A stretch of 42,147 bases of DNA from Candidatus Stygibacter australis. GTDB lineage: Bacteria; Cloacimonadota; Cloacimonadia; Cloacimonadales; TCS61. Each line of letters opens with the position of its first letter. Positions within the stretch are counted from its first letter, which is position 1. The notes beneath the pieces were generated by a model that had not been told where the DNA came from, searched no databases, and worked only from the letters and a program-made list of their open reading frames with translations. Shown here in pieces: positions 4,000-40,952 of this stretch. Where the stretch lies: assembly GCA_030765845.1 (NCBI GenBank), contig JAVCDJ010000235.1, forward strand, positions 1-42,147, given 5' to 3'. The translations under genes and the position numbers were made by a program.

Positions 4000-6702
4000 A
4001 TGAAAAAGAAGCTGTTTTTAATTGATGGTACCGCCCTGATCTATCGGGCCTATTATGGACTTATCCGTAATCCTCTTTATACTTCTACCGGCATTAATAC
4101 CAGTGCCATGTTTGGCACTTTCAATATGTTTCTCTCTTTTTTGCAACGCTATAATCCTGAGTATATGCTGATTTCATTTGATCTGAAGGAAAAAACCTTC
4201 AGATCTAAACTTGACCCTAATTACAAAATTAACCGTCCTCCAACTCCTCCGGAAATGATTGAGCAGTTTGAGCCGATCAGGGATTTCTTCGTGTTAGCTG
4301 GTGTGAAAGAAGTGAGTATCTCAGGATATGAGGCTGATGATATTCTGGGGTCGGTTGCGGAGCAATATAAAAGTGAGTTTGATGTTGTCATCGTTACTGG
4401 AGATAAAGATTTCGCTCAGATAGTGGATGACAATATTGTACTTTTTGATCCCAAAAAAGAAATCATTATCAATCGTGAGAAGGTAATAGAAAAATATGGT
4501 GTTACTCCTGAGCAGTTTATTGAATATCTGGCAATTTGCGGTGATAGTGCTGATAATATACCTGGAGTGAAAGGTATCGGTCCCAAAGGAGCAGAAAAGC
4601 TGCTTCAGGAATTTGGTGATCTTGATAATATCTATCAACATCTGGATGATATTTCCTCAAAAAGTATCAGAACAAAGCTGATTGAACACAAGGAAGATGC
4701 TTACTTATCCCGCAAACTGGCTACCATTATCCGTGATCTGTCTCTGAATATTGATCTTAAGGATTTGAAATTCACTAATGCCAGACTTTCCCATACTATT
4801 GATTTTTTGCGGAAATATGAACTGCAATCAATAATTAATAAAGTGCAGCCGCTTGAGCAGGATATATTCAGTATGCTCGATGATGAAGCTGCTGATGAAT
4901 CTGATCCTTTTAAAGCAGTGCTGATCAATGAAAATTCTGAATTTGATAAACTTATTGATCAAATAAAAAAACAGTCAGTTATTGCTATTGATACGGAAAC
5001 CACCTCCAAAGATCCGTTATTAGCTGAGCTGGTGGGAATATCTTTATGCTGGGAAGAAAATAAGGCATATTATCTGCCTATTGGTCATCAAATGGCAGTG
5101 AATCTTGATAGAGAAATAGTGCAGGAAAAACTGCAAAATGCCCTTAAAGGTAAAATCCTGATAGCTCATAATTATAAATATGATTTTCTGGTACTCAAAT
5201 CTGCCGGCTGGCAGCTTGATAATCAAGTTTTTGATACCATGATCGCTGATTATCTGCTGCATCCATCCGATAGACATAGCCTTGATCATTGTGCCCAGAA
5301 GTATTTCTCATATAAAATGATCCCTATTTCAGATCTGATTGGTAAAGGGAAAAAACAGGTAACTTTTGACCTGGTGGGTACCAGCCAGGCTTGCCGTTAT
5401 TCTGCTGAAGATGCCTGGGTCACCTGGAGATTATATCAATTGCATTCTACAGGAATTAAGGAATCTGAACTGGATAAGCTTTATTATGATCTGGAAATTC
5501 CACTCCTGTTTACCTTAGCTGAAATGGAAAGCAAAGGTGTCTATCTGGATCAAAAGTTTTTGAAGAAACTTTCATCCCAGGTTCAGGGAACTATTGGAAA
5601 ACTTACTAAGGAAATATATGAAATTTCCGAGGTGCAATTTAATCTTAATTCCACTCAACAATTGGGCAAAATCTTATTTGATAAGCTGGAAATCCCTCCG
5701 GTGAAGAAAACTAAATCAGGTTATTCCACTGATCAAAGCGTGCTTGAAAAGCTGGCACCAGAACATGAGATTGCCCGTCTGCTCTTAGAATACAGAATGC
5801 TCAATAAACTTCTGAATACCTATATTAATGCCCTGCCTGCTCTTGTGAATCCCCTTACCGGTAGGATTCATTCTTCCTTTAATCAGACAATTGCTTCCAC
5901 GGGCAGACTTTCTTCTTCTAATCCCAATCTGCAGAATATTCCTATTCGTACTAAATTAGGTAAGGAAGTTCGCAAAGCATTTTGTGCTTCACATAAGGGT
6001 TGGTCTATAGTTTCTGCTGATTATTCGCAGATCGAGCTTAGGATCTTTGCCATATTAACTCGTGATGATACTTTGATCAAAACCTTCCAGGCTGATAAAG
6101 ATATTCACAGTAAAACTGCCAGCTTGATCTATAAAATTGCAGAGTCTGAAGTTACTCCAGAACAGAGACGTTATGCAAAAATCATTAATTTTGGCTTGTT
6201 ATATGGCATGGGTGCTTACAGAATATCAAATGAACTCTCTATCTCTCGCAAAGATGCTCAGAAATTTATTGATGACTATTTCCAGAATTTCCCTTCTGTC
6301 AGGAACTTCATCGATGTTCATCTGCTGGAAGCTGCTGAAAAGGGATATGTGGAAACTATTCTAAGACGCAAACTCTCTTTACCTGATCTGAATAGCTCAA
6401 ACAGGCAATTACGCGAAGCTGCCCAAAGAGTAGCAGTGAATATGCCTGTTCAAGGTAGTGCTGCAGATGTTATCAAAATTGCCATGAATAGACTGCATAA
6501 GTTTTTCGAAAATAGACCTGAGATAAAAATGCTCATCCAGGTTCATGATGAACTGGTATTTGAGATCAGGGATGACGTGATGGATGAGGCATTGGAAGTG
6601 ATAAAAAATACTATGGAATCTGCCATACCAGATGAGTTTAAAGGGATTGTTCCTCTGAAAGTTGAAATCGGGGTAGGATCAAACTGGTTCGAAGCGCACT
6701 AA
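4000..6702 (+). CDS. polA: DNA polymerase I
   Basis: 900-residue, three-domain DNA polymerase I. Residues 1-~290 are the 5'-3' flap exonuclease (LIDGTALIYRAYY, YEADDILGS, GDKDFAQI, SADNIPGVKGIGPKGA). Residues ~310-490 are the 3'-5' proofreading domain with its carboxylates apparently intact: D331/E333 in IDTETT, D395 in AHNYKYD and D471 in YSAEDA. Residues ~510-900 are the polymerase: motif A SADYSQIEL (D674, steric-gate E679), motif B RRYAKIINFGLLYG (K727, F731) and motif C QVHDELVF (D850). It fills Okazaki gaps and acts in excision repair. The ATG follows an AGGAG site. The stop overlaps the stop of a decayed convergent lpxK fragment on the other strand. Confidence 0.98.
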   Translation: MKKKLFLIDGTALIYRAYYGLIRNPLYTSTGINTSAMFGTFNMFLSFLQRYNPEYMLISFDLKEKTFRSKLDPNYKINRPPTPPEMIEQFEPIRDFFVLAGVKEVSISGYEADDILGSVAEQYKSEFDVVIVTGDKDFAQIVDDNIVLFDPKKEIIINREKVIEKYGVTPEQFIEYLAICGDSADNIPGVKGIGPKGAEKLLQEFGDLDNIYQHLDDISSKSIRTKLIEHKEDAYLSRKLATIIRDLSLNIDLKDLKFTNARLSHTIDFLRKYELQSIINKVQPLEQDIFSMLDDEAADESDPFKAVLINENSEFDKLIDQIKKQSVIAIDTETTSKDPLLAELVGISLCWEENKAYYLPIGHQMAVNLDREIVQEKLQNALKGKILIAHNYKYDFLVLKSAGWQLDNQVFDTMIADYLLHPSDRHSLDHCAQKYFSYKMIPISDLIGKGKKQVTFDLVGTSQACRYSAEDAWVTWRLYQLHSTGIKESELDKLYYDLEIPLLFTLAEMESKGVYLDQKFLKKLSSQVQGTIGKLTKEIYEISEVQFNLNSTQQLGKILFDKLEIPPVKKTKSGYSTDQSVLEKLAPEHEIARLLLEYRMLNKLLNTYINALPALVNPLTGRIHSSFNQTIASTGRLSSSNPNLQNIPIRTKLGKEVRKAFCASHKGWSIVSADYSQIELRIFAILTRDDTLIKTFQADKDIHSKTASLIYKIAESEVTPEQRRYAKIINFGLLYGMGAYRISNELSISRKDAQKFIDDYFQNFPSVRNFIDVHLLEAAEKGYVETILRRKLSLPDLNSSNRQLREAAQRVAVNMPVQGSAADVIKIAMNRLHKFFENRPEIKMLIQVHDELVFEIRDDVMDEALEVIKNTMESAIPDEFKGIVPLKVEIGVGSNWFEAH

Positions 6703-6726
6703 AATATATTCAGCAAATCACCATTC

Positions 6727-6746
6727 ATAAGATAAAATTCTATTCT
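6727..6746. repeat. 20-bp direct repeat, left copy
   Basis: Perfect 20-bp direct repeat (begins ATAAGATAAAA) whose partner is at 6950-6969. On the minus strand both copies encode RIEFYL of the lpxK remnant. They flank the inverted-repeat element and could be a target duplication or the product of illegitimate recombination. Confidence 0.85.
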
Positions 6747-6752
6747 TACCAG

Positions 6753-6905
6753 CCAAAACCTTGCGAATGGTGCCTGCACCTCCGCAATGGTTGATCAGAG
6801 GGAAGAAGAACATAAACAAAAGCCAATATACGATTTAGCGTTATTAGTAGCTTGCTCATATCGGTCAACCATTGCGGAGGTCTATGGACCATTCGCAAGG
6901 TTTTA
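6753..6905. repeat. Inverted-repeat element (two ~43-bp arms)
   Basis: The left arm (~6754-6796) and right arm (~6863-6905) are inverted copies of each other. Each holds two perfectly complementary 17-bp blocks (AAAACCTTGCGAATGGT and ACCTCCGCAATGGTTGA) separated by an 8-bp poorly matched stretch. The 66-nt centre has no coding potential that I can see. It can fold as a long hairpin and resembles a miniature inverted-repeat element more than a terminator, since no T-tract follows. Copies elsewhere in the genome would decide its nature. Confidence 0.7.
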
Positions 6906-6949
6906 GAAAGTCTTCTCCGAAATTGGATATTTCCGTCCATTCTCCGCTA

Positions 6950-6969
6950 ATAAGATAAAATTCTATTCT
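6950..6969. repeat. 20-bp direct repeat, right copy
   Basis: Identical to 6727-6746. It lies 44 bp beyond the right arm of the inverted repeat, while the left copy lies 6 bp beyond the left arm, so the pair is not a textbook target-site duplication directly abutting the element. Confidence 0.85.
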
Positions 6970-7041
6970 AATAACAGCAATCGGCACTGATAAAGCCAGA
7001 TGCATAAGTTTTGTATAATCCTTCTCGGTGGTTAAAATGTA

Positions 7042-7986
7042 TGGCTCTCCGCAGAAATTAGTGGGTAGACAATAAAACAAAGGTCATCTGAATAGCTTCA
7101 AATTAGCAAAAGAAGTTTCAGTTACAAATTGGGGGATATGGGTGCAGAAGAATATCATGTTTTAGGTGAGGATGAAGATAAAAGTGAGAAATTGGAGAAA
7201 AAGCTTTTATTCAGTAGAAACGTTGCAGCAATATATGAAAATAATAATGATATTTTATATGGTGAAGAAGAATATTGATACACTTGTAACCCACAGGGAA
7301 CCCACAGGGAGGGTACAGGGAGAATAATTGGGACAGAGAAAATAGTTAAATAATGACATTTCAGATATTTATGATCAAAAAGCATATAAAATGAGATAAA
7401 ATGCGAAAAGTGTAACATATAGTCTAAAATATATAATGAGTAAAATTGTAAAGACAGGAAGTGAACGAGTGTATGGTGATATGATAAATAGCCGGGTATT
7501 TACTATGCGAAAGATAAATTACTAAATATAGTTCCTTGCGATAATTTTGAAATCTGCCACTAATTTTTGCTGAGAGCCAAATGTATTTTATCTGACTATC
7601 TTCTATGGCGAGTATATATTACGCCATTCTTCTAAATCAGGAACTTCAATCGGCTCTTTATTTTTATCTTAATCATCATACCACTTTATACGGGAAATAG
7701 AAAAATATCACTGTATTTTGTTTCAAGTTCAATTATTATTTTATACTATATATCACATTATTAACATTGTTAGATTATGTGAGATCATAAAAGATAAAAA
7801 AATAAAAAAATTGAGTGATGTTGTCACACTTTGGCAAATTCAGGGACTATATATATATAGAGATGATTTTAATTATAAGAATTTTTACGAGATTGTTAAT
7901 AGATTGATAGTTATTTTGAAGAAAATATCATTGGCAAGATGAAAATGATATTGCGATATAAATAAATTAAACAGGAGGTATTTAAA
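7042..7986. other. Gene-poor interval between the lpxK scar and the C25 gene
   Basis: No convincing full gene. It holds a short tandem repeat at 7289-7321 (separate entry). It also has a 46-codon plus-strand ORF at 7138-7278 ending in an acidic tail (NNNDILYGEEEY), without a well-spaced ribosome site. A minus-strand scrap at about 7690-7603 reads KWYDD, stop, DKNKEPIEVPDLEEWRNIYSP, stop, which looks like the broken C-terminus of a small protein. A TTG-initiated 74-codon ORF at 7718 is low-complexity Ile/Lys-rich and probably spurious. The block looks like decayed accessory DNA. Confidence 0.5.
7289..7321. repeat. 11-bp tandem repeat, three units
   Basis: Two perfect units ACCCACAGGGA (7289-7299, 7300-7310) and a diverged third GGGTACAGGGA (7311-7321). 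A degenerate copy of the same array lies at about 31488-31522 in another intergenic region, so it belongs to a dispersed intergenic repeat family. Confidence 0.75.
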
Positions 7987-10900
7987 ATGACAAAAGTTAG
8001 AATTAACAGAAATGAGTTTTTAGTTCTGATCTGCATGATTATGTTTACTCTGCTAAGTTATGATCTATTATGCGTTGATACATTAGGTAACCAGGATGTT
8101 ATTATTCCTGAAAAGTACAGTGCTGATGCAGAGACCATAATTACAGCGATGGAGAATACAAAACACGAAGATTCTCATCAAGAGCTGAGAGATAACCGAT
8201 TACTTAGTCCTGAATTAGTAATCATTACGACTGATGCACTGGAAACTGATTTTGAAGAGTTTGCTGAGCTCAAGACTGAAGAAGGAATAGTAACAGAAAT
8301 ATTCACATTGACAACCACGGGCACAACTTCAACTGCAATAAGAAGTTGGCTGGAAACTCGAAAAACAACATATGCAAGTTTGCAATATGTTATAATCGGA
8401 GGTAGTATTGATTTAGTTCCGGCACATCAAATAGTCTATGATCATGCAGGAAGTACCATTTCTGCATCAACTGATTTTTATTATAGTAATGTATTATCAG
8501 CCTGGCCCCAGAATGATGATATCATGGCAATAGTTACTGATATTGATCTTTATGTTGGTAGATTACCTGTACGGAATTCTGATGAAGTTGAGAATTTTAT
8601 AACTAAGTACCGGAATTATCGGACCAATTATATTGATAATACTGACAGGATGAGTTTTATATCCACTAATGTTCCTCGAGATGCATCATATGATTTATAC
8701 GATTCCTATGTAAGTGATATAATGACACATACCGGGGCTAATATTGTCAACGAATTCTTGTTATGTGAAGATTTAGTTGATATCGTTAATGGCGCCGCTA
8801 CTGAAGTAGTGAATGTGCTTCAGGACAGGGATTACTCTTTTTTATATGGAGTTTGGCATGGAGTGGATCAATTTACAATCCTGGACAGTGAGTTTGATCA
8901 TAACGATTCAGCATACTTGCAGGGTTTTGGGCCTCATATGCAATCTCTAAGCATAAATACTAATAGAGTGGAGGAAGGGAGTTGTGAATATGGGGAAGAG
9001 ATAAATGGCGAATGGCAATATTTCTACACAATTTCAGATGAATGTTACCTGCAGCTTGAAGACGTTTTACCAGAGACTTATGGGAATACATACGTTACCT
9101 GGATAGCATCCTGTAGGACAATGGATTTGAATTATGTAAGTTTTTCACAAGACTGTGCAAGAGATGAACAGGATGAGATTATCTGTAATTTGGATGAAAA
9201 TGGCTGGTCCGACTATTGGGTGAACACTGCACCTGTGACGGTCTATAATGATGAGAATTGCATAAATGAAGTATTTTTTAATCAGGTGGGAGGTCCAGTA
9301 GCAATATATGCGTCATCAACCACTGATTATCCGAGTATTTCACGATTTATAGTACAAGAATATATGGATTTACAGTTTATTGACGATGAACATACTATGG
9401 GATTTATCACTAATGAAGCCTGGAATTTATATGACAATCTATTTTCAATATATTTATACAAGTTAATATTTTTAGGTCATACATTATTCGGAGATCCAAG
9501 TATGGATGTATGGTCTGCTGAAGCCAAGCAACTTGTTCTTAGTAAAAATATCAGAGTATCTCCTGAAAGTCTATGGCCTGAATTTGAAGTTTTTGACACT
9601 CAGGGTAATCCTGTTGAAGCGCTTGTAAGTGTAATTGATGATGTAGGAGTGCTCCAGGGAAGAGGGATGTCACCTTTTCAATATAATGGCACAGTTGGTA
9701 ATGACTGGGTAATATCAGCCAACAAGGCAAATTACGTTCATGATATAAGGGAATACAGTTATTTGAAGACTAATGATACGGTACCTTATTCGATGGGATT
9801 CGAGGACGGGCTGGATAAGAATTGGAGAGTGGAATCTGATTTGCCTTATGGCAGAATTTTAGTTACTTCCGAGAATTCACCCCATAGTGGAAATATGCAT
9901 TTGACCATGGACACAAATACAAACTATGAATATGCACACAATAGTGCTGATTTACATCTAAATCTGACAGGAGAAGACAGACTAATGCTTGATTTCTGGT
10001 GGAAGGAATTTTATGATGAAGATAATGATTATGATGGCGTGTTCATATCAGATGACAATGGAGATAACTTCACCAAAATTTATTCACTAATAAATGGCAT
10101 TGGCTGGGAAAATATAATGATCGATCTGGATGCAGCAATATACACGGCAAGATTGGAATATAATAATAACTTTATTATCAGATTCCAGCAGTATGATAAT
10201 TTTCCAATTAGTAGCGATGGATTTGCTTTTGATGATATTCAAGTCTATTCAATGTATGCTGATCTTCCCTATAGTACGGGTTTTGAATCAGGCTTGGATG
10301 GTTACTGGGATACTGAATCGAGTAATGCACATGGTTATATTGAAGTCACCTCTGAAAATATGTATCCTCATGGAGGTCAAGAAGCTCTTGTTATGGCAGG
10401 TGATGGAAGTGGAACTTATGTGTATAACAGGGCATTTTTATATTTGAACCTGGAGAATGAAACTGATGTAGAACTTGATTTCTGGTGGAATGATTACAAT
10501 GATGAATATCAGGCTGGAGATGGAATATACTTATCTAAGAATGGTGGAATGAATTTTGTAAAAGTACACAATCTTAATGGAGAAACTCATGCTAATAAAG
10601 TGTGGACAAATATTGTGCTGGATATATCAGCTATTGCAGCCAATCTTACATGGGATTTAAATTCACATTATGTGATTAAATTTCAGCATTACGATAATGA
10701 GATCATCAATGAAGATGGATTTGCCTTTGATGATATTCAAGTGTATTCATCAGCAAGAGAAAAATCTGAAGAAAATTTTGGGAATGCAGTGACAAGTTTA
10801 AAAAGCTATCCTAATCCATTTAATCCTCAAACAACCCTTTCATTTAATTTGAATGAAAACACTGAAATAAATCTCAGTGTTTATAATATCAAAGGGCAAT

Positions 10901-11061
10901 TGGTCAGGGAATTGATCAATGAACATCTTGAAGAGGGCAATCATTCAGTAATCTGGGATGGCCGTAATGCTTCAGGTAAAACAACAAGCACGGGAATATA
11001 TTTTGCCAGATTGAAAGCCCGCAATCTTGATATTACCAAGAAAATCATATTAATCAAATAA
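7987..11061 (+). CDS. Secreted C25 (gingipain-like) cysteine protease with sorting domain
   Basis: 1024 residues. The signal peptide is about residues 1-30. The peptidase C25 region spans ~60-510 and includes VIIGGSIDLVPAHQI, the catalytic His in YGVWHGVDQ (H291) and the catalytic Cys in WIASCRTMD (C376). A beta-rich linker leads into two tandem MAM/jelly-roll-like repeats, each beginning PYS-GFE-GLD and ending GFAFDDIQVYS (~599-756 and ~760-922). Residues ~938-1024 form the YPNPFNPQT...GIYFARL domain typical of type IX-like secretion/FlgD-type C-terminal tails. Start chosen at an ATG preceded by AGGAGGT. By family it is a cell-surface or secreted endopeptidase. A second C25 gene follows 23 bp downstream on the same strand, so the two are probably co-expressed. 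Specificity is not predictable. Confidence 0.88.
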   Translation: MTKVRINRNEFLVLICMIMFTLLSYDLLCVDTLGNQDVIIPEKYSADAETIITAMENTKHEDSHQELRDNRLLSPELVIITTDALETDFEEFAELKTEEGIVTEIFTLTTTGTTSTAIRSWLETRKTTYASLQYVIIGGSIDLVPAHQIVYDHAGSTISASTDFYYSNVLSAWPQNDDIMAIVTDIDLYVGRLPVRNSDEVENFITKYRNYRTNYIDNTDRMSFISTNVPRDASYDLYDSYVSDIMTHTGANIVNEFLLCEDLVDIVNGAATEVVNVLQDRDYSFLYGVWHGVDQFTILDSEFDHNDSAYLQGFGPHMQSLSINTNRVEEGSCEYGEEINGEWQYFYTISDECYLQLEDVLPETYGNTYVTWIASCRTMDLNYVSFSQDCARDEQDEIICNLDENGWSDYWVNTAPVTVYNDENCINEVFFNQVGGPVAIYASSTTDYPSISRFIVQEYMDLQFIDDEHTMGFITNEAWNLYDNLFSIYLYKLIFLGHTLFGDPSMDVWSAEAKQLVLSKNIRVSPESLWPEFEVFDTQGNPVEALVSVIDDVGVLQGRGMSPFQYNGTVGNDWVISANKANYVHDIREYSYLKTNDTVPYSMGFEDGLDKNWRVESDLPYGRILVTSENSPHSGNMHLTMDTNTNYEYAHNSADLHLNLTGEDRLMLDFWWKEFYDEDNDYDGVFISDDNGDNFTKIYSLINGIGWENIMIDLDAAIYTARLEYNNNFIIRFQQYDNFPISSDGFAFDDIQVYSMYADLPYSTGFESGLDGYWDTESSNAHGYIEVTSENMYPHGGQEALVMAGDGSGTYVYNRAFLYLNLENETDVELDFWWNDYNDEYQAGDGIYLSKNGGMNFVKVHNLNGETHANKVWTNIVLDISAIAANLTWDLNSHYVIKFQHYDNEIINEDGFAFDDIQVYSSAREKSEENFGNAVTSLKSYPNPFNPQTTLSFNLNENTEINLSVYNIKGQLVRELINEHLEEGNHSVIWDGRNASGKTTSTGIYFARLKARNLDITKKIILIK

Positions 11062-11084
11062 AACAATTTAAACTGGAGGATAAA

Positions 11085-14000
11085 GTGAAGAAAAAAATAT
11101 TGGCAATGTTATTGTTGTTACCGTTATTTTTAAGTGCAATTACCAATCAGTTTCAAGTAGAAACTACTGTTGAAAAGACTATCCTGAGAATGCCTTTATA
11201 TAATTCAGAAGCGGATTCAGTATATCATCAGGTTCTGCCTGTGATAGACGGATGTGGATATAGTATAGATAATTCCATGAATTGTTCAGCAGCATTAAGC
11301 TCAGTTATGAAAATGCGGGATATGGAATTTACTGTACTAACTGTAGAACCTGAATTGGGATTAGTAAGTGGCGATACTATAAGTGTAGAATTAAGCGGCA
11401 GTAGCGAAGAGGGGATAACGTTTAATAACCCGGCAGGTTCATTTCTGAAGATGTATATCAGTATGTTTCCCGAAATGGCAGAACGTGAGAACTGGCGTGA
11501 TGTAGAACCAGCCCAGCCAAGTATTCTATATATATATCCTGATGATGCGAATGTATTGATTAATCTAAACTATCTTGTAGAATGGAAAAAACAGAAGGGA
11601 TATCTAGTAACTGTTGCTACTACAACCGAGACCGGAACAACCACGACCTCCATCAAGAATTATATCCAGAATGCTTACGATACCTGGGATGTGCCACCAG
11701 AGTATATTTGCCTGGTTGGAGATGCTAATGGCGATTACGCGATTCCCACCAACTTTTACTCACCCTTGAATGGCAATGGATCTGGAGAAGGAGACCATCA
11801 ATACACTCTGCTGGCAGGTGATGACGCTATCAGCGATGTTCATATTGGGAGATTATCTTTTAGCAGTGAAGAGGAATTGCAAATAATAGTATTCAAAACA
11901 AAAAAATATGAAAAAGAGCCATTTATAAACGATCTAAGCTGGTATAATCAAGTTCTATTAACTGGAGATCCAACTGATTCTGGCTTATCTTGTATTTATA
12001 CCTGTGTAAACATCAAAGAATTGATAAATAATAATCATCCTGAATATAGCTTTTTTGAAGTGTATGACGGCTCATTCGTACAACAAATGGAATCCTATAT
12101 TAATGGAGGAGTTAGCTTTTTCACCTACCGAGGATATAATAACATGAGTGGTTGGCAAGTTGCAACTGCGTGTACTTTATCTAATGGCTATATGATGCCT
12201 TTTGTAGTTATACCTACTTGTGATACTGGAAGTTTTTTTGATGACAATAATTGCCGTAGTGAATCATTCCTTCGAGCCGGATCTAACACACTTCCGCAAG
12301 GAGGAATCGGAGCTATAGGGACAGCAACAACTGAGACAAATACTTGTTTCAATAACTGTTTTGCTCAGGGAGTTGCTTATGGATTATATGCAGAGGATTT
12401 AAAAACTATGGGAGCTGCACATACAAGAGGAAAAGTTTCATTGTGGGAGGGTTATCCTGACAATCCAGATAATCAAACTGAAAAATTTAATTGCTGGAAT
12501 AACTTGATGGGTGACCCTTCTGTAGAAATCTGGATTGGTGAACCACTAAATCTTGTGGTTGAAAGCGAAGTGGATTACTCAAGTAATCAAAATGGTATAA
12601 TAATTTGTGCGGAAAACGACAATAACTACCCAGTAGAAGGTTTATATGCATGTCTTTATAATGAGCCCAATGATGAACAATATTTTTGTTTCACTGATGA
12701 AAACGGAAATGCTTTTTTTGATATTTCAGGATGTACATCTAATTTATTTAAACTGACGGTTAGCGGTAAAAATTATAATCCGGTACAGAGTGATATACAT
12801 CTGGTAAACCAGGAACTGGAAATAACTAATCTGACCTTTGCTAACATAGGCAATAATGAAAGTTTTGAACCAGGAGAAGAAGGAGAATTAACCTTTAATC
12901 TGTTTAATGATAGCGATGATGATATTTCACAGGTTGAAGTAACTATAGCGAGTATTTCAGATGAAATAACAATTGAAAATGGGGAAATAACGAACGTTAC
13001 GATTCCAGCGCAGCAATCAGTTCTTCTTGATGATATTATCATAAATTACCTGGGGGGGGCAGATATATCTGATTGTAGTATAAGTATCAGTATAGAATCC
13101 CTGGAATGTTCATACACAGACTCATATATTGTACCACTAACATTTCTGGAATTATCGTTATATAGTTGTGTAATTAATAATAATAATGATCCCGAACCCG
13201 GAGAAATAGTAGATTTTGATTTTGCAATAGAAAATACAGGTGATTATGAGATTAATGATATAGCTCTGGAACTAACCTGCAATAGTAACTTAATAACTAT
13301 TTCACCAAGCTCTTGTGACCCGATAGATCTGGACCCACAGGAAATTTATGAATCATTATTAGATCCTTTTTATATTGATATTGCTGATGAGTTTATTCCA
13401 GAAACGGATTCAATTTTCACCTTAACATTATCTAATGCAGCGGGATTTTGGCAGGAGATAGAAGTTATCCAGGCAATAGGAACCGCCGGGACAAGTGATC
13501 CTACAGGACCAGATGAATTTGGATATTGTATCTACGATGAAAATGATACCGGAGATCAATCGGTTAGTTATGTCTGGACTGAAATAAACACAACAACTGC
13601 TTTGCCTTTAGATCCAGAATATAATATTGGGGTAGGAGATCAAGGCACATCATGGCAGGTAAATCTTCCTTTTGATTTTCGTTTTTATGGTAAAAATTAT
13701 GATGAAATAACTATTTGCTCAAATGGCTGGGTAGCTCCTGGTTGTACGGAGAGTGTTTCTTATATGAACAGACCAATTCCCGGAGATGGAGGAGTGTCAC
13801 CAATGATAGCCGTATTCTGGGATGATCTTGTTATGAATGCAAATTCAGGAGTATATACAAGTTATCAAAATAACACACTTATTATTGAATGGGATAATCT
13901 GGAAAATGATTATGAGCAACCTGGAATAATCTATGAAGAAACCTTTCAACTAATCATCTATGACAGAGCTGAGCGTTCCACTTCCAATGGAAATAATGAA

Positions 14001-16178
14001 ATGAAGTTTCAGTATAATACATTTAATAATGTCAATGCTGGCTCCTATAGTGGTGGTAGTGCGGAACATGGTTTATATTCAACAATTGGGATCGAAGACC
14101 AGACAGGAACAATAGGAGTTCAATATTCATTTAATAATGAATATTTTGATACAGGAACCCAACTTGATAATCATACTGCTATACTGATCAGTGGAGTTAC
14201 TATACCTGCAAATTCCTGCTGGCTGGTAATGGAAGATTTGCATTACAACCAATCAGAGGAAGTTGTTCTACCAGGTACAACAATCAATCTTACTATTGAT
14301 TTAAAGAATTTAGGTAGTGTAGCCACCGGGGATATTTCTATTACTTTGTCATGTGATCATGAAGAATATGTTGAACTGACAACCAGCGAATATACAGCTT
14401 CTACAATAGCTTCAGGAAATACGGCAGTAATAACCGAACTTTCATTCGATGTTAGTGAGAATTTTCCACTAATGGAAACGTTAAGATTTAATCTTAATTT
14501 CCAATGTAATGGAATGAGTTGGGATTATATTTCAATTCCGGATATCACAGCATCCTCAATTAATATTTCTGAAAGCATTATTGATTACGGAGAAGTTTTC
14601 CGTAATTATGAGAAAGAGTATGTTTTGGAGATTGGAAATATTGGGGCAGTAGATTTGGAACTCACAGATATTTATTTAGACTGTACTGGGCTTCAAAGTG
14701 ATTTTGAACCTCAAACCATTGCACCAGGAGAAACTACAGAACTGTTACTCACTTATGAAAGCGAAGAATACGGAGAAATTGAGGGATCAATAACAATATC
14801 TAGCAATTCTGTAATTAATGATGAGTATGAAATTCAAGTAATCGGTACTGTTGTAGATCCTCCTGAAATTGAAGTACAAGAAATCACAGATTTTTCCGTA
14901 CTAATTGATGAACTTACAGATATCCCAATCTGTATCAGTAATGTCGGTCTGGCAAATTTTGATTTTTCAGCTCATTTGGAGGGTATTTATAATTATTGTG
15001 CAGATTTCAACAATGGATATTTGCAACTTAACCAATGTTTACTCACTGATGATGATTTTACCATAGAAGCCTGGGTAAGAGTTGATGGTGCCGCATACGG
15101 TGATCATGCAACTAATACTCTATATGAGCAGAGAAAAAATACTGCAACTGGAGGATATGGTGCAGTAATCTGCTTTTTTGTCAGAACAGCTAATGGTGAG
15201 ACTAAATTCATTATTAAGGGATCTTATAGTTCCGGTACCGTACTGACTGTTACCTCTGCCCCTGATTTGGGAGGATGGCACCATTATGCTGCTACGGTAA
15301 ATGATGACGATATTTATCTATATATTGATGGTGAAGTAAAAGCTCATGCAGAAAATGATGAGAGTGGTGACTATATTGCTGGAGTAGTGAATAAAGATCT
15401 GGGTGCTCATCGGTATTATCATGACGTTGATCAGGAATCCTTCTTGAATGGTGCAATGGATGAAGTACGCTTTTGGAATGATGTCCGTACTGTAGATGAA
15501 ATAAATGACAATATGTGTCAAGTTGTAGATCCCAGTGATGATGATCTGATTGCTTATTGGAGATTTGATGATACTAATAGCTGGTATGATCTGGTTCAAG
15601 GATACCCTCCCCTGAATGTAACACCGCACAACAATGTTAATTATCAAATTTCCGTGGTTCCAGGAATTTCCCTGGGAAATGATGACTTGGAGATTGTAAG
15701 TGGAGAAAGCAATGATTTAATTCTGCAAATTGATGGGTTTTTGCTGCAACCGAATCATGTATATGAAGCGAATATAATTCTGGAGGCAAATGATTATACT
15801 AACTATCCAGACATTGTATTTCCAATAACAATTACAGCAGTTGATAATGGTACGGGTACAGGAGAAGATATTATCTCTCATAACATAATAGAACAAAACT
15901 ATCCCAATCCTTTTATTGCAACTAACAATATAAGGACAGGGACAGTAATAGAATATGCCTTGCGCGATGATATAAGCAAAGCAGAAATTGCTATTTATAA
16001 TATCAAAGGACAAAAAGTGAGGAGCTATGTTTTGAATCCAGAAGAAAAGCGATGTGGAGAAATAATCTGGGATGGACGCAATAGCAGTAATGTTAAAGTA
16101 GGTACCGGTGTTTATTGTTATGGATTAAAAGCAGACGGAGTATTATCTGAATGCAGAAAAATGCTGTTGCTGCATTAG
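11085..16178 (+). CDS. Giant C25-family surface protein with LamG and sorting domains
   Basis: 1697 residues, GTG start behind CTGGAGGA. An N-terminal hydrophobic signal (LAMLLLLPLFLSA) precedes a pro-region and a C25-type domain (~150-500, starting near ILYIYPDD; LVGDANGDYAIPTNF, IGRLSFSSEEEL). The position of the usual catalytic His-Gly is YRGYNNMSGW (Y351), while the Cys is kept in PTCDTGSF (C379). Then follow a carboxypeptidase-regulatory-like segment, CARDB/Ig-like repeats and a beta domain (FRFYGKNYDEITICSNGWV). After these come an ASH/DUF1573-like domain (~1160-1255), a LamG/concanavalin-like lectin domain (~1303-1495; FTIEAWVRV, GGWHHYAATV, MDEVRFWNDVRT) and a C-terminal YPNPF sorting/FlgD-like domain (~1602-1697). 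It is probably an adhesin-protease that may be catalytically altered. A G8 tract lies in codons ~656-658. Confidence 0.85.
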   Translation: MKKKILAMLLLLPLFLSAITNQFQVETTVEKTILRMPLYNSEADSVYHQVLPVIDGCGYSIDNSMNCSAALSSVMKMRDMEFTVLTVEPELGLVSGDTISVELSGSSEEGITFNNPAGSFLKMYISMFPEMAERENWRDVEPAQPSILYIYPDDANVLINLNYLVEWKKQKGYLVTVATTTETGTTTTSIKNYIQNAYDTWDVPPEYICLVGDANGDYAIPTNFYSPLNGNGSGEGDHQYTLLAGDDAISDVHIGRLSFSSEEELQIIVFKTKKYEKEPFINDLSWYNQVLLTGDPTDSGLSCIYTCVNIKELINNNHPEYSFFEVYDGSFVQQMESYINGGVSFFTYRGYNNMSGWQVATACTLSNGYMMPFVVIPTCDTGSFFDDNNCRSESFLRAGSNTLPQGGIGAIGTATTETNTCFNNCFAQGVAYGLYAEDLKTMGAAHTRGKVSLWEGYPDNPDNQTEKFNCWNNLMGDPSVEIWIGEPLNLVVESEVDYSSNQNGIIICAENDNNYPVEGLYACLYNEPNDEQYFCFTDENGNAFFDISGCTSNLFKLTVSGKNYNPVQSDIHLVNQELEITNLTFANIGNNESFEPGEEGELTFNLFNDSDDDISQVEVTIASISDEITIENGEITNVTIPAQQSVLLDDIIINYLGGADISDCSISISIESLECSYTDSYIVPLTFLELSLYSCVINNNNDPEPGEIVDFDFAIENTGDYEINDIALELTCNSNLITISPSSCDPIDLDPQEIYESLLDPFYIDIADEFIPETDSIFTLTLSNAAGFWQEIEVIQAIGTAGTSDPTGPDEFGYCIYDENDTGDQSVSYVWTEINTTTALPLDPEYNIGVGDQGTSWQVNLPFDFRFYGKNYDEITICSNGWVAPGCTESVSYMNRPIPGDGGVSPMIAVFWDDLVMNANSGVYTSYQNNTLIIEWDNLENDYEQPGIIYEETFQLIIYDRAERSTSNGNNEMKFQYNTFNNVNAGSYSGGSAEHGLYSTIGIEDQTGTIGVQYSFNNEYFDTGTQLDNHTAILISGVTIPANSCWLVMEDLHYNQSEEVVLPGTTINLTIDLKNLGSVATGDISITLSCDHEEYVELTTSEYTASTIASGNTAVITELSFDVSENFPLMETLRFNLNFQCNGMSWDYISIPDITASSINISESIIDYGEVFRNYEKEYVLEIGNIGAVDLELTDIYLDCTGLQSDFEPQTIAPGETTELLLTYESEEYGEIEGSITISSNSVINDEYEIQVIGTVVDPPEIEVQEITDFSVLIDELTDIPICISNVGLANFDFSAHLEGIYNYCADFNNGYLQLNQCLLTDDDFTIEAWVRVDGAAYGDHATNTLYEQRKNTATGGYGAVICFFVRTANGETKFIIKGSYSSGTVLTVTSAPDLGGWHHYAATVNDDDIYLYIDGEVKAHAENDESGDYIAGVVNKDLGAHRYYHDVDQESFLNGAMDEVRFWNDVRTVDEINDNMCQVVDPSDDDLIAYWRFDDTNSWYDLVQGYPPLNVTPHNNVNYQISVVPGISLGNDDLEIVSGESNDLILQIDGFLLQPNHVYEANIILEANDYTNYPDIVFPITITAVDNGTGTGEDIISHNIIEQNYPNPFIATNNIRTGTVIEYALRDDISKAEIAIYNIKGQKVRSYVLNPEEKRCGEIIWDGRNSSNVKVGTGVYCYGLKADGVLSECRKMLLLH
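13052..13059 (+). repeat. G8 homopolymer within coding sequence
   Basis: Eight consecutive G in an AT-rich gene, read as CTG GGG GGG GCA (Leu-Gly-Gly-Ala). A one-base slip would frameshift after the C25 domain and remove the LamG and sorting domains, which is the pattern expected of a phase-variable contingency tract. Confidence 0.8.
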
Positions 16179-16547: not shown

Positions 16548-17588
16548 TTAATGAATAACAATAGATGTTACGATGGCATCATCATTGAAAAGATAAAATT
16601 CAATTCTAATAACTGCACATGGCGCTGATAAGACCAGATGCTTGAGTTTAGTATAATCCTTTTCAGTAGTTAATATATAATCTATTTGACTTCCTTCTAT
16701 CTGATTTTCCATGGTTTGTTGATCATTAGTATTGGCAAAATGATAATGATCAGGAAATTTCAGATGAAACTGCCATTCAAGATTTAAATTTGATATGGTA
16801 GTTTCCAGAGAAAGAGGATCAGCTATTCCAGAAATGATACCTAACCTTCTGGATTTTAATTCTGACACTTCTATCCTGGTTTGGTTACTAACATAAATCC
16901 CTTCAACCTGATAACTTCCCTGATGAATATCTTTATTATACTTCGGGAAAGTTTCTGGTATATCACCTTCACCATTAAAGATGATCAGATCCGCATCTTT
17001 TATTGCTGATAATGGCTCCCGCAAAATACCGGCAGGCAGCAAAAACCCATTTCCTAATGGTTTTGCTGTCTTGAAGATCACAATATCAATATCGTGCTTT
17101 ACTTTGAGATGCTGAAAGCTGTCGTCCAAAATTATCATTTCCAGATCAGGATATGCCTCGCAAAGCATCTGGATTGATTTCCAGCGGTCTTTCCCGGCAC
17201 AGACTGGAATACCTGGCAGTTTCTCTGCCAATAATTGTGCTTCATCGCCAGCTTTTTTAGCTGCAGGTAATACATTATCTCTGTCTGATATCAGGGTATT
17301 ATTATTTTCAAAATCACCTTTATATCCTCGATGAGATACTGCAATTTTTCTGCCCTGCTGCATCAATTTTTTTGCCAGCCAGATGGTGAAAGGCGTTTTT
17401 CCGCTGCCCCCAGCAGTTATATTGCCTATAGAAATGATCTTTACATCAGCCTTTTTTGCCTTATAATGATGATACCATTCTCGCCTGCAACTCTGAATCA
17501 CTTGATTAATAAGTGATAATGGATATAAAATTATTGAGAGTATTGATCTATTCAGTAAATGGTGATTAATGAAGTCCTGACGGGTCAC
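16548..17588 (-). CDS. lpxK: Tetraacyldisaccharide 4'-kinase
   Basis: 346 residues, normal for LpxK, the inner-membrane kinase that adds the 4'-phosphate to the lipid A disaccharide. Visible features are an N-terminal amphipathic/membrane-associated segment (~15-30) and the P-loop SIGNITAGGSGKTPFTIWL (~53-71). The family motifs SHRGYKG, GDEAQLLA, DDSFQHLKVKHDIDIVI and LLPAGILREPLS also appear, with the C-terminal TTEKDYTKLKHL box. The GTG start overlaps the cobO stop by one base (TAGTG), so the two are translationally coupled. Its presence shows an outer membrane with lipid A. A decayed copy of its last ~40 codons lies at 6699-7041. Confidence 0.95.
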   Translation of the reverse strand: MTRQDFINHHLLNRSILSIILYPLSLINQVIQSCRREWYHHYKAKKADVKIISIGNITAGGSGKTPFTIWLAKKLMQQGRKIAVSHRGYKGDFENNNTLISDRDNVLPAAKKAGDEAQLLAEKLPGIPVCAGKDRWKSIQMLCEAYPDLEMIILDDSFQHLKVKHDIDIVIFKTAKPLGNGFLLPAGILREPLSAIKDADLIIFNGEGDIPETFPKYNKDIHQGSYQVEGIYVSNQTRIEVSELKSRRLGIISGIADPLSLETTISNLNLEWQFHLKFPDHYHFANTNDQQTMENQIEGSQIDYILTTEKDYTKLKHLVLSAPCAVIRIEFYLFNDDAIVTSIVIH

Positions 17589-22219: not shown

Positions 22220-22616
22220 ATCTACCTCCAGATTGCCGTGTTTACCTGCATCTCAGAATTTAATCCATAAATTCTACTTAATACCTATTCAATTATTTCA
22301 TATTATTATGTAAAGCATTTTATTACCCGAATTAGTTCTCTCTTACCTCTTATATAAACTTCACTTCACATATTTCCCACCCATTTCCCGCATATTTACC
22401 GCTTGCACTCGAAACGACACCACATTTTTTTGTTGTGTCGTTTCGAGTGCGATTGGATGGGGATTTCTGTGATGCTGCTTTGTATTCACTTGCAGTATAA
22501 CAAAGATGCCTGAAGGGACTGAGAAATAACTGTTATGATTATTTTGATTGACTTATAGATTTAACTGGATAGAAAGTAAACATTATAAATTCAGGAATAA
22601 AAGCGGGGAGTTAAAA
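22220..22616. other. Divergent intergenic region between the signalling operon and ispD
   Basis: Nearly 400 bp with promoters expected in both directions. The notable element is the perfect 16-bp palindrome listed separately, placed almost midway between the two start codons. The frame of ispD stays open upstream to 22548, but the conserved protein begins at 22617. I see no other gene. Confidence 0.6.
22405..22450. repeat. Perfect 16-bp inverted repeat (palindromic hairpin)
   Basis: Left arm 22405-22420 (GCACTCGAAACGACAC) and right arm 22435-22450 are exact reverse complements, with a 14-nt spacer containing T7. A further 3 bp pair after one mismatch. No T-tract follows on either strand and the flanking genes diverge, so it is not a normal terminator. 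It is either an operator or regulatory hairpin or a dispersed palindromic repeat. Confidence 0.85.
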
Positions 22617-37006: not shown

Positions 37007-38971
37007 ATGAAATTTTCATTAATATTTATAATGATTTCCCTGCTGCTGATGGCAGGATGTTCATTTAGTGATGACGAGGAGAATGTTGAGACCATTACAG
37101 ATCTGGAAATACCTGATGGTTTTGAATTTTCACTGGAAAATGATGTGCGAGTGGATATAACTCTCCAATCAAACCTGGGCGAACCCGTACCGGGGATAGT
37201 TTATGGATTATCTTATGTAGATAACAATGGCACTTATCAGTTCATCAGATCAAATATGACCAATACTGCTGGAGTGATAAACTCTATTCTTGACCTGCCA
37301 TCTTATGTGAGGAAAGTGTTTATTTCAGGTTTTATGAACAGCATTGAACTGGACATAATCAATAATGAAGTAGAGTATTCCTTTGTTCCGGGAGGACGAG
37401 AAATATTAGGTGATTTCACAGTTCCAGCTCCTTCCCGCAATTTCACATTTTTGGATGGTATCACATACAATAGTCAAGGGGTTCCCAATCCTTATGATAT
37501 GTTTCCTGTAACTGCTGAGATGCTTACGAGAGTAGATACTTCTTTGCCTGAGGGCGTTAGTTTACCAAATTCTCATCCCCAGTATCTGGAAGATGGGATC
37601 ACCACAAATTTTATAATCTCAGACAGCTCTGATGTGTGGGTGACCTTTATCACAGAGGGTGCGGGTTACAAAAATTCTTTAGGCTTTTATACCTATGATC
37701 AGGAAGCAGGAGCGCCGGATGATGCGAGCTCACTAGAGCATATCCTGCTATTTCCCAATACTTCTCTTGCGGGTAGTGGTGGAGGATTAGCTTCCGGGAT
37801 GCAGCTTTATATAGGCAGATTTGGGGCTGGCACAATAATGGGCTGGTTCCTGGTACAGGACGGCTGGGATTATGGTACTAATGTAGATGAAACTGCTCTA
37901 CGATTCTATAGTGACAGACAATATAATCCCGAAGAAGACGAAGAATACAACCAGCACCAGGTGCTGCTATTTGATGCAGAAACAGAATTATTTCTACTGG
38001 GATTTGATGATCAGGTGAGACCTGGTGGTGATAATGATTTCAATGATGCAGTATTTTTTGTAACTGCTAACCCTATAGAGAATATAGATACTTCTGGAAT
38101 TCCGCCAATAGATATACCTGTAGATTCTGATGATGATGGCGTAAATGACCCATTTGATGATTACCCTGATGATCCCGAACGGGCATTTGATGTATATTAT
38201 CCATCTTCCACTCAAACAGCAACGCTGGTTTATGAAGATATGTGGCCCCTTTATGGTGATTATGACATGAATGATATGGTGCTGGATTACCGTTATGTGA
38301 TGGTAACCAATGCAGATGATGAAGTGAAGGATCTTAATCTGGAATTCAGCTTAAGAGCTGCCGGCGCTTTTTATAATAACGGATTTAGTGTTCTGCTGCC
38401 ATTTGAATATGCTAATCTTACTTTAACTGAAAGCAGCGATAATATCTTCCCGGCATTAGTACAGGATGGAGAATACACTATTTTTGATCTGTTCCAGTCA
38501 ACTTCAATGATCACTGGTCTGCCGGCAGGTACCATATTTAATACTGAAACTGATGCTGTATATTATGATCCAGTTGACTTCAACGCAAAGGTGACGCTAA
38601 CTGATCCGATAGATATAGAAAGCCTGGATTTCTCCTTCCCCTTTAATCCATTTATCACAAGACAGGGAGCACAAAGCCATGAAATCCATTTGATGAATTA
38701 TGCACCTACAGGCAGACATGATTTTAATCTGTTCATGACAGATGATGATAATAGTAATCCTGATACGGGCTCCTATTACGTGTCACCCCTTAACCTGCCC
38801 TGGGGTTTGAATCTTCCCGAAAGCTGGAAGTATCCCATAGAAAGAAACACTATCACAGAGGCATATTTTAATTTTGCTGCCTGGGCAGAAAGCGGAGGAG
38901 AATCCTTCCAAGACTGGTTCCTCTATTTAGAAGATAGAGTTGACCCTGAAAAAATATATCAAACCCCATAA
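37007..38971 (+). CDS. LruC/DUF4842-domain lipoprotein (first paralogue)
   Basis: 654 residues. The lipoprotein signal MKFSLIFIMISLLLMAGC ends in lipobox MAGC. After an N-terminal Ig-like region comes a DUF4114-type domain (~200-360; AGTIMGWFLVQDGW, DAETELFLLGFDDQ and DNDFNDAVFF). A single thrombospondin-3/calcium-type Asp-rich segment follows (DSDDDGVNDPFDDYPDDP from D373). The LruC/DUF4842 domain comes next (WPLYGDYDMNDMVLDYRY). The C-terminus ends WAESGGESFQDWF. LruC proteins are outer-membrane or surface lipoproteins of Leptospira and Bacteroidota with unclear function. AGGAGG precedes the ATG. The paralogue follows 13 bp downstream. Confidence 0.85.
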   Translation: MKFSLIFIMISLLLMAGCSFSDDEENVETITDLEIPDGFEFSLENDVRVDITLQSNLGEPVPGIVYGLSYVDNNGTYQFIRSNMTNTAGVINSILDLPSYVRKVFISGFMNSIELDIINNEVEYSFVPGGREILGDFTVPAPSRNFTFLDGITYNSQGVPNPYDMFPVTAEMLTRVDTSLPEGVSLPNSHPQYLEDGITTNFIISDSSDVWVTFITEGAGYKNSLGFYTYDQEAGAPDDASSLEHILLFPNTSLAGSGGGLASGMQLYIGRFGAGTIMGWFLVQDGWDYGTNVDETALRFYSDRQYNPEEDEEYNQHQVLLFDAETELFLLGFDDQVRPGGDNDFNDAVFFVTANPIENIDTSGIPPIDIPVDSDDDGVNDPFDDYPDDPERAFDVYYPSSTQTATLVYEDMWPLYGDYDMNDMVLDYRYVMVTNADDEVKDLNLEFSLRAAGAFYNNGFSVLLPFEYANLTLTESSDNIFPALVQDGEYTIFDLFQSTSMITGLPAGTIFNTETDAVYYDPVDFNAKVTLTDPIDIESLDFSFPFNPFITRQGAQSHEIHLMNYAPTGRHDFNLFMTDDDNSNPDTGSYYVSPLNLPWGLNLPESWKYPIERNTITEAYFNFAAWAESGGESFQDWFLYLEDRVDPEKIYQTP

Positions 38972-38984
38972 AATGGAGAATAGA

Positions 38985-40952
38985 ATGAAGAGATTAATTT
39001 ACTTGCTCCTTATCACTATGCTGGTGCTGGTTTCCTGCACCTCAAATGATAATGACATTAACAAGGCACCAAATGGTATGCAGGAATTAGAAATTCCGGA
39101 TGGATTTGATTTTTCCTCAGAACAAAATGTAGACCTGTATATCAATATCCAGAATTATAATACTGCCCCGGTTGCAGGTATCGTTTTTGACATCGCCTAT
39201 GTGAATAGTGATAACGAAAATATGCATATTATGCAGGCAGTAACAAATGAAACTGGAATTATCGAAAGACAGCTTATTGTGCCTTCCTATGTTAATAAGC
39301 TATTTGTAAGTGGTCTTATGAGCAGTCAGGAACTGGAAATCATCAATGGAGAAGCAAGATATGAAATGGGTCCCGGTCAGGGATTCAGAAGTGATGCAAA
39401 TTATGAACCTCCTGCTGCAACCAGATCATTTTCTTATCTTCCTGGTGTTACCTATAATAGCCAGGGGGTACCCTCTCCCATAGATTTAATTGCTATTGAA
39501 CCGGAGGTTATAGCCCGTATTTCCACTTCCCTGCCTGAACATGAAGATGTGGGTACTACTCATCCTGAATATATAGCTGACGGAGTAGAATCAAACTTTG
39601 TTATTATTGAAGATGCGGATGTCTGGATAACGTTTGTAGCTGAAGGTGCCAGTTATCGAAATGCCTTTGGTTTTTATACATATCCTGTAGGGAATCCTCC
39701 TGCTGATCCTGCTTCTTTAGATCATACTATATTATTCCCCAATTGTTCATATCCCGGCTATGGTGGAGCTCTGGAATCGGGTTCCAAGATATATCTGGGA
39801 ACATTTACGGCAGGGACAGTAATAGGCTGGTTCCTGGTCCAAAATGGCTGGGAAGGATCGGCAAACGTCTCTGAAACTGCCCAGCGCTTTTATAGTGACA
39901 AGCAGTATAATCCCGAAGGTGCTCCTGATGATGAGCATACTGTTTTATTGTATGATGCCGAACATGAGCTTTTTGTGCTTGGCTTTGAAGATGTAAATCG
40001 CCAGGAAAGTTTTTGTGATCATGATTTCAATGATGCCGTTTTTATAGCTAATGCTAATCCCTTAAGTGGTATAGATAACACAAATATTCCCCCTATCGAC
40101 GTTCCTCCAGATACTGATGGTGATGGAGTAAGTGATCCTATTGATGAATTTCCAAATGATCCTGATCGTGCCTTTACTCAATATTATCCATCCACAGAAT
40201 ATGCCACGGTAGTTTTTGAAGACCTATGGCCCCATTATGGTGATTATGATCTTAATGATTTGGTTATTGACTTCCGTTATCAAATAGTAACAAATGCCGC
40301 TGGTTTGATGAAGGATATTGATGTTTTAGGACGACTCAGAGCAGTAGGTGCCAGCAATAATAATGGTCTTTCTATTGAATTTCCTTTTACTTATAGTGAT
40401 GTAACGATCACGGGATATAGTGATAATCTCACACCAGCACTGGTTGAAGATAACTATACGATACTTGATCTATTCAGCAACACCACATCATTGACAGGTC
40501 AGCCGGTGCCGGCGGCATATAACACAAATATGGACCTGCCAACTCATGCTCCGATAGAATTCTACTGTAATATGACCTTAGCCAGTCATCTGGATTTATC
40601 AGCATTGGATTTCCTGCTGCCATTTAATATTTTTATGATCCAGCAGGGCGATGTATCTCATGAAATCCATCTCATCAATCATAGTCCCACTGGAAGAGCC
40701 GATCTTAACTTATTTGGAACTCATGATGACGCTTCAGTTCCTTCTCTGGATAGTTATTATCTCTCTATCACAAATCTACCCTGGGCATTGAATATGCCGG
40801 AAAGCTGGCATTACCCCGCAGAGCAAAACAGCATAATTGAAGTATATGATCAGTTTGCCGGCTGGGCAGAAAGCGGTGGCATTTCTAACCAGGAATGGTA
40901 TTTATTCCAGAGCGATCGTGTGGATATGGATAAGGTGTATATAGATCATTAA
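38985..40952 (+). CDS. LruC/DUF4842-domain lipoprotein (second paralogue)
   Basis: 655 residues from the ATG at 38985, chosen because GGAG lies 7 nt upstream and the protein then begins MKRLIYLLLITMLVLVSC, a proper lipoprotein signal. The frame is open back to 38940 inside the previous gene. It aligns end to end with the preceding protein, with the same order: DUF4114-like domain (AGTVIGWFLVQNGW, HDFNDAVFI), an Asp-rich segment (DTDGDGVSDPIDEFPNDP from D376), LruC domain (WPHYGDYDLNDLVIDFRY) and a C-terminus with WAESGGISNQEWY. It is thus a diverged tandem duplicate, presumably co-expressed. A terminator follows. Confidence 0.85.
   Translation: MKRLIYLLLITMLVLVSCTSNDNDINKAPNGMQELEIPDGFDFSSEQNVDLYINIQNYNTAPVAGIVFDIAYVNSDNENMHIMQAVTNETGIIERQLIVPSYVNKLFVSGLMSSQELEIINGEARYEMGPGQGFRSDANYEPPAATRSFSYLPGVTYNSQGVPSPIDLIAIEPEVIARISTSLPEHEDVGTTHPEYIADGVESNFVIIEDADVWITFVAEGASYRNAFGFYTYPVGNPPADPASLDHTILFPNCSYPGYGGALESGSKIYLGTFTAGTVIGWFLVQNGWEGSANVSETAQRFYSDKQYNPEGAPDDEHTVLLYDAEHELFVLGFEDVNRQESFCDHDFNDAVFIANANPLSGIDNTNIPPIDVPPDTDGDGVSDPIDEFPNDPDRAFTQYYPSTEYATVVFEDLWPHYGDYDLNDLVIDFRYQIVTNAAGLMKDIDVLGRLRAVGASNNNGLSIEFPFTYSDVTITGYSDNLTPALVEDNYTILDLFSNTTSLTGQPVPAAYNTNMDLPTHAPIEFYCNMTLASHLDLSALDFLLPFNIFMIQQGDVSHEIHLINHSPTGRADLNLFGTHDDASVPSLDSYYLSITNLPWALNMPESWHYPAEQNSIIEVYDQFAGWAESGGISNQEWYLFQSDRVDMDKVYIDH

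Follow-up and report, generated by a model that had tools for sequence, protein, structure and literature searches.

What is the DNA that abuts the 3' end of polA in Candidatus Stygibacter australis, and how did a second piece of lpxK, interrupted around a perfect direct repeat, come to lie there? We analysed a window of 42,147 nt, which is contig C235 (JAVCDJ010000235.1) of a 3.8-Mb genome in 278 contigs (G000). A first-pass annotation had placed a remnant of lpxK on the minus strand at 6699-7080 and had proposed that removing one copy of a 20-bp repeat together with the intervening DNA restores the gene's 3' end. The remnant was compared within a genus sample of three genomes: G000, G001 and G002, the last taken as Candidatus Stygibacter frigidus (Cloacimonadota), the sister species and closest named relative. 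When the contigs of named genomes were scanned for lpxK, the sister species was the sole return (83%). The genus was described from an Antarctic lake (PMC8542988). We found that the remnant is a genuine decayed second lpxK 3' end, cut by two elements that resemble miniature inverted-repeat transposable elements (MITEs). Its parts are as follows.

6699..6746, minus strand: lpxK fragment A, RIEFYLMNGDLLNIF-stop, recognized from its sequence, with 26/30 nt matching intact lpxK over part of it and a positional counterpart in G002
6727..6746: first copy of the 20-bp direct repeat, made up of the RIEFYL codons of lpxK and two more nucleotides
6747..6910: hairpin MITE of a dispersed family, truncated, identified by a repeat search and alignment to intact copies
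6755..6794: imperfect palindrome that forms the left arm of a 40-nt inverted repeat
6865..6904: the corresponding right arm
6911..6949, minus strand: 39 nt with no match elsewhere in G000 in the repeat search, similar to the polA flank of the sister species; they are either filler or fragment B's own tail (RIEFYL-ISGEWTEISNF...)
6950..6969: second copy of the 20-bp direct repeat
6950..7042, minus strand: lpxK fragment B, ...ILTTEKDYTKLMHLALSVPIAVIRIEFYL, from nucleotide and tblastn matches to lpxK
7035..7042: first copy of the 8-bp target duplication AAATGTAT
7043..7578: 536-bp MITE-like element with terminal inverted repeats and ends GGCTCT..., inside the lpxK remnant
7579..7586: second copy of the 8-bp target duplication AAATGTAT
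7579..7606, minus strand: lpxK fragment C, IEDSQIKYI, 85.7% identical over 28 nt to G002 lpxK and placed by the empty-site join

The similarity to lpxK is far beyond chance. On the minus strand, 6952-7041 aligned over 90 nt with 16590-16679, inside the intact lpxK that lies 9.5 kb away, with 82% identity (E ~1e-20). Identity to the lpxK of the sister species was 89% over 88 nt, so that the nucleotide similarity extends well past the 20-bp repeat. A tblastn comparison of the remnant with LpxK aligned 26 of 34 residues (76%, E 9e-11); the first-pass annotation had counted 26 of 31, and it was right that the strand beside polA encodes the last part of the protein. Fragment C directly adjoins fragment B in lpxK coordinates and in the same order, and the two are in frame once the 536-bp element is removed together with one target duplication, giving an open frame, IEDSQIKYILTTEKDYTKLMHLALSVPIAVIRIEFYL, that aligned with the lpxK of all three genus genomes. 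The annotated span is therefore real but too short, since the remnant resumes at 7579-7606 beyond the element.

We detected lpxK homology only from about codon 297 on. Roughly the last 38 codons and the tail survive, in three pieces, and these codons match the last part of LpxK (tetraacyldisaccharide-1-P 4'-kinase, PF02606) in G000 and its congeners; the C-terminal end alone is present and the kinase core is absent. The 5' part is missing, the reading frame is disrupted by two insertions, and the stop codon of fragment A shares 2 nt with that of polA. Such a pseudogene fragment probably makes no product. It is ordinary genome decay and has little significance beyond G000, where it documents the decay of a gene fragment and two MITE families in Candidatus Stygibacter.

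The insertion of the 536-bp element is the one clean insertion event of the region. The element has 23-nt inverted arms (7042-7064 and 7557-7579), and a perfect 8-bp duplication, AAATGTAT, stands on either side of it. The genome holds two further near-full-length copies (C218, C205) at 87-88% identity as well as several partial ones, and both congeners also gave matches. With a longest open reading frame (ORF) of at most 87 aa, it is too short for a transposase, and its inverted ends, target duplication and several copies are those of a MITE. Two smaller features were also noticed. At ~7288-7320, inside the element, 33 nt matched at ~90-100% at about 30 places in G000 and G001 and are perhaps a smaller nested repeat, and at C51:878-925 of G000 two ends of the element are separated by a mere 48 bp, in what amounts to a minimal hairpin.

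The DNA between the two 20-mers, which the first-pass annotation had left without an identity, is largely a second and unrelated element. A search of the genome with 6690-7100 gave 80 matches, mostly to this hairpin MITE and often two per copy because the element has inverted symmetry; it also matched in G001 and G002 and so occurs throughout the genus sample. Every copy carries a pair of oppositely oriented palindromic arms (ACCTTGCGAATGGT...ACCTCCGCAATGG), and the single strand folds far better than shuffled sequences (z = -9.6). Intact copies measure 279-305 bp (C260, C194, C113) and have the ends GAGACTGTTCAA...TTGAACAGTCTC. Set against these, the copy in the window is missing approximately the first 16 nt and the last 100 nt, and with both ends gone it has neither terminal inverted repeats nor a target duplication of its own. 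A second subfamily of 329-334 bp shares the GAGACTGTTCAA ends (C228, C37, C202, C130, C136), and four of its five copies have perfect 8-bp target duplications: ATTCTACA in C228, CACCTGTA in C202, CTTGTGAC in C130 and CCTTCACA in C136. Two copies of this subfamily (C228, C37) have a long palindrome, rich in GC and centred around CCTCCCCCAAACACCGGC, as their interior.

Both elements are like bacterial MITEs in being short and multi-copy, in coming from families that end in inverted repeats, and in their 8-bp target duplications, seen here for the 536-bp element and in intact relatives for the hairpin element. A difference is that no same-ended autonomous partner was found: a search that was not exhaustive showed no autonomous partner with GAGACTGTTCAA ends in the stretches examined, and no autonomous transposon with the ends of the 536-bp element in the copies examined. 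A literature search found no paper combining Cloacimonadota with miniature inverted-repeat elements.

The hairpin MITE also shares features with repetitive extragenic palindromic (REP) sequences and the REPINs that they form (PMC3733652), namely paired imperfect palindromes in opposite orientation, many copies, and a location mainly between ORFs (seven contexts examined). Unlike in REP/REPIN sequences, its palindromes sit in a larger element with terminal repeats of its own. REP/REPIN palindromes carry a GTAG or CGTC tag (PMC3733652); the arms here begin ACCTTGCG..., and no tag occurs in the listed arms. We rejected a system driven by a REP-associated tyrosine transposase (RAYT), since none of the five Y1_Tnp genes of G000 is flanked by hairpin-MITE palindromes, and no hairpin arms lie within ~1-2 kb of those five ORFs. 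An Rfam search for known RNAs gave only sub-threshold matches to eukaryotic families.

What, then, does the 20-bp repeat mean? The sequence ATAAGATAAAATTCTATTCT occurs at 6727-6746 and 6950-6969, exactly where it had been annotated. Read on the minus strand it is AGAATAGAATTTTATCTTAT, the RIEFYL codons and two further nucleotides. The intact lpxK genes of G001 and G002 contain its first 18 nt (AGAATAGAATTTTATCTT) unchanged, and G000's own intact copy has one mismatch to them, a conservation that the first-pass annotation had also missed. Because it spans conserved RIEFYL codons, the 20-mer is not specific to this locus, and a repeat of this sort is to be expected wherever two lpxK tails are juxtaposed. 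Beyond the two RIEFYL copies the tails differ, MNGDLLNIF-stop beside polA and ISGEWTEISNF... on the other side. A target-site duplication of the hairpin MITE was ruled out, given the 8-bp duplications of intact relatives and the missing ends of the copy in the window. More generally, a perfect direct repeat flanking an insert may not be a target duplication if it coincides with conserved codons.

We then considered whether an lpxK tail at polA is peculiar to G000. Antisense to polA, the flank in G002 reads YLIGGALAEIF-stop, with a stop codon overlapping that of polA as in G000. Local alignment of this flank with the tail of fragment B, the YL codons included, scored 40, a value reached by 1 of 3000 shuffles; when the YL codons were left out, 24 of 3000 shuffles reached the score of the alignment. 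In the same alignment test, the polA flanks of G001 and of a further relative, G015, showed no likeness to an lpxK tail. The antisense tail and the shuffle result suggest that an lpxK-type tail at polA is probably older than the split between G000 and G002. The annotation's claim that an lpxK copy once sat convergent to polA thus stands for the 3' end, with a trace in the sister species; a full second lpxK is unsupported, only ~38 codons and the tail being present.

We looked for polA beside lpxK in 40 relatives and then in 40 family genomes and found it in none; the two genes were on different contigs or far apart (~249 kb on one contig in G051). None of the genomes searched but G000 has both genes close, so that an ancestral adjacency was rejected, and the uninterrupted lpxK next to polA that the annotation had hoped to see in relatives did not appear. 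The polA contig (C167) and lpxK contig (C103) of G002 could not be joined, there being no shared k-mers at their ends.

Together these data favour, with a probability of roughly 70%, a history in which the remnant would be a non-functional second lpxK 3' end, convergent to polA, that decayed and was hit by two unrelated non-autonomous elements, with the 20-mer arising from two lpxK tails brought together. The remnant lpxK would have diverged from the intact copy roughly when the sister species split off, and then decayed. The data show directly that the 536-bp element jumped into the codons now at 7579-7606 and 6950-7042, leaving its 8-bp target duplication, that the hairpin MITE, now truncated at both ends, came to be situated at the RIEFYL codons, and that the 20-bp repeat to its left and right is lpxK coding sequence in both places. 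The most likely cause of the pairing would be a deletion that joined the lpxK tail next to polA to that of fragment B. Within the end of the MITE is TTCAATTCT, nearly equal to TTCTATTCT of lpxK, and this is the exact point at which the MITE meets the polA-side tail; DNA between the MITE end and that tail may have been lost at the shared TTC(A/T)ATTCT microhomology.

Several points weigh against this history. The two 20-mers are identical and just 39 nt are left unexplained, the likeness of the two tails past the RIEFYL codons is weak, and the trace in G002 is only ~32-45 nt long. A single capture with a 20-bp duplication may instead have taken place. In that event the lpxK tail would have broken at RIEFYL with a 20-nt stagger, a 203-bp piece (the MITE fragment and the 39 nt) would have been sealed in, and the 20 nt would have been duplicated. 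This is close to the one-event reconstruction of the first-pass annotation, and skipping one 20-mer and the insert does leave codons open to a stop beside polA. We nevertheless regard it as unlikely. The insert proved to be a doubly truncated MITE plus 39 nt, from a terminal-repeat family that makes 8-bp duplications, and a copy without both ends cannot have arrived by ordinary transposition; the perfect identity of the 20-mers is uninformative where they are conserved lpxK coding sequence; and the 39 nt resemble a separate lpxK tail when set against the sister's polA flank. Two lpxK tails, or break repair, explain the repeat as well as a clean insertion does.

The genes around the remnant bear on a further explanation.

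4000..6702, plus strand: polA (DNA polymerase I), from the ORF list, with the remnant convergent to its 3' end
7987..11061, plus strand: C25 (gingipain-type) peptidase with a Por secretion tail
11085..16178, plus strand: second C25 peptidase, multidomain
16548..17588, minus strand: intact lpxK, with a full PF02606 domain (Pfam, E 1.6e-76)

The two C25 gingipain-type genes adjoin each other at 7987-16178, and their C-terminal domains are of secretion type. This 9-kb peptidase block is flanked by direct copies of the lpxK 3' end, as would be expected if a DNA circle bearing the C25 peptidase genes and part of lpxK had recombined once into lpxK, so that a complete gene was left at one end of the block and, towards polA, a 3' end without its 5' part. 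The polA of G002 is likewise followed by an accessory secreted-protein gene. We find such an insertion-duplication rather improbable. The two copies differ by ~18%, more than a recent single crossover inside one genome would leave, except where the DNA that entered was from another species; next to polA the match to lpxK breaks off ~38 codons before the tail; and polA and lpxK are neighbours in no relative examined.

The DNA that follows polA differs in each congener: C25 peptidases in G000, a gene for a 2338-aa secreted protein in G002, and CRISPR-Cas genes in G001. The polA orthologues of the two congeners are 90% and 78% identical to that of G000. The site has the look of a recurrent breakpoint, in keeping with its debris, and the remnant marks the DNA after polA as variable and rearranged within the genus. 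In G001 (C123) the cluster after polA comprises Cas6, DevR/Csa2-type, Cas3 and Cas1 genes. It is conceivable, though we rate it as very improbable, that an lpxK 3' end by polA serves as a preferred landing site in this genus for the repeated arrival of accessory blocks (secreted-protein genes, CRISPR-Cas), each of which would rebuild the lpxK tail from the DNA that it brings, in loose analogy to integrating elements that restore the 3' end of their target gene. An assembly artefact, which a metagenome-derived, repeat-rich genome in so many contigs might invite, is the least credible explanation, as the sister species independently retains the polA-side tail, the 8-bp target duplication is biologically coherent, and the remnant has no 100% match elsewhere in the genome.

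We also compared the remnant with intact genes for signs of its age. Over 117 nt it differs from G002 lpxK at 20 positions and from the intact G000 copy at 27, while G000 and G002 differ from each other at 19. Third codon positions account for 11 of the 20 and 16 of the 27 differences, an excess expected if the remnant sequence was long under selection. Trees built from 114 nt grouped the remnant with G002 at 74-81% support, with informative sites split 3:3:1; dating or placing the remnant by tree was dropped, as so short an alignment gives weak support.

The intact lpxK of the cobO operon supplies the lipid A 4'-kinase step, and the cobO-lpxK gene order around it is common to G000, G001, G002 and G015. 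Y1-type transposase genes lie near lpxK or cobO-lpxK in two other family members (G012 C19:22832-23125 and G007 C123:3393-3572). Elsewhere in the window, an imperfect palindrome of 46 nt (22405-22450, 83%) is situated between an rsbU-like gene and ispD, and two neighbouring similar genes at 37007-40952, with ~67% nucleotide identity over 720 nt, form a tandem duplication of a secreted-protein gene.

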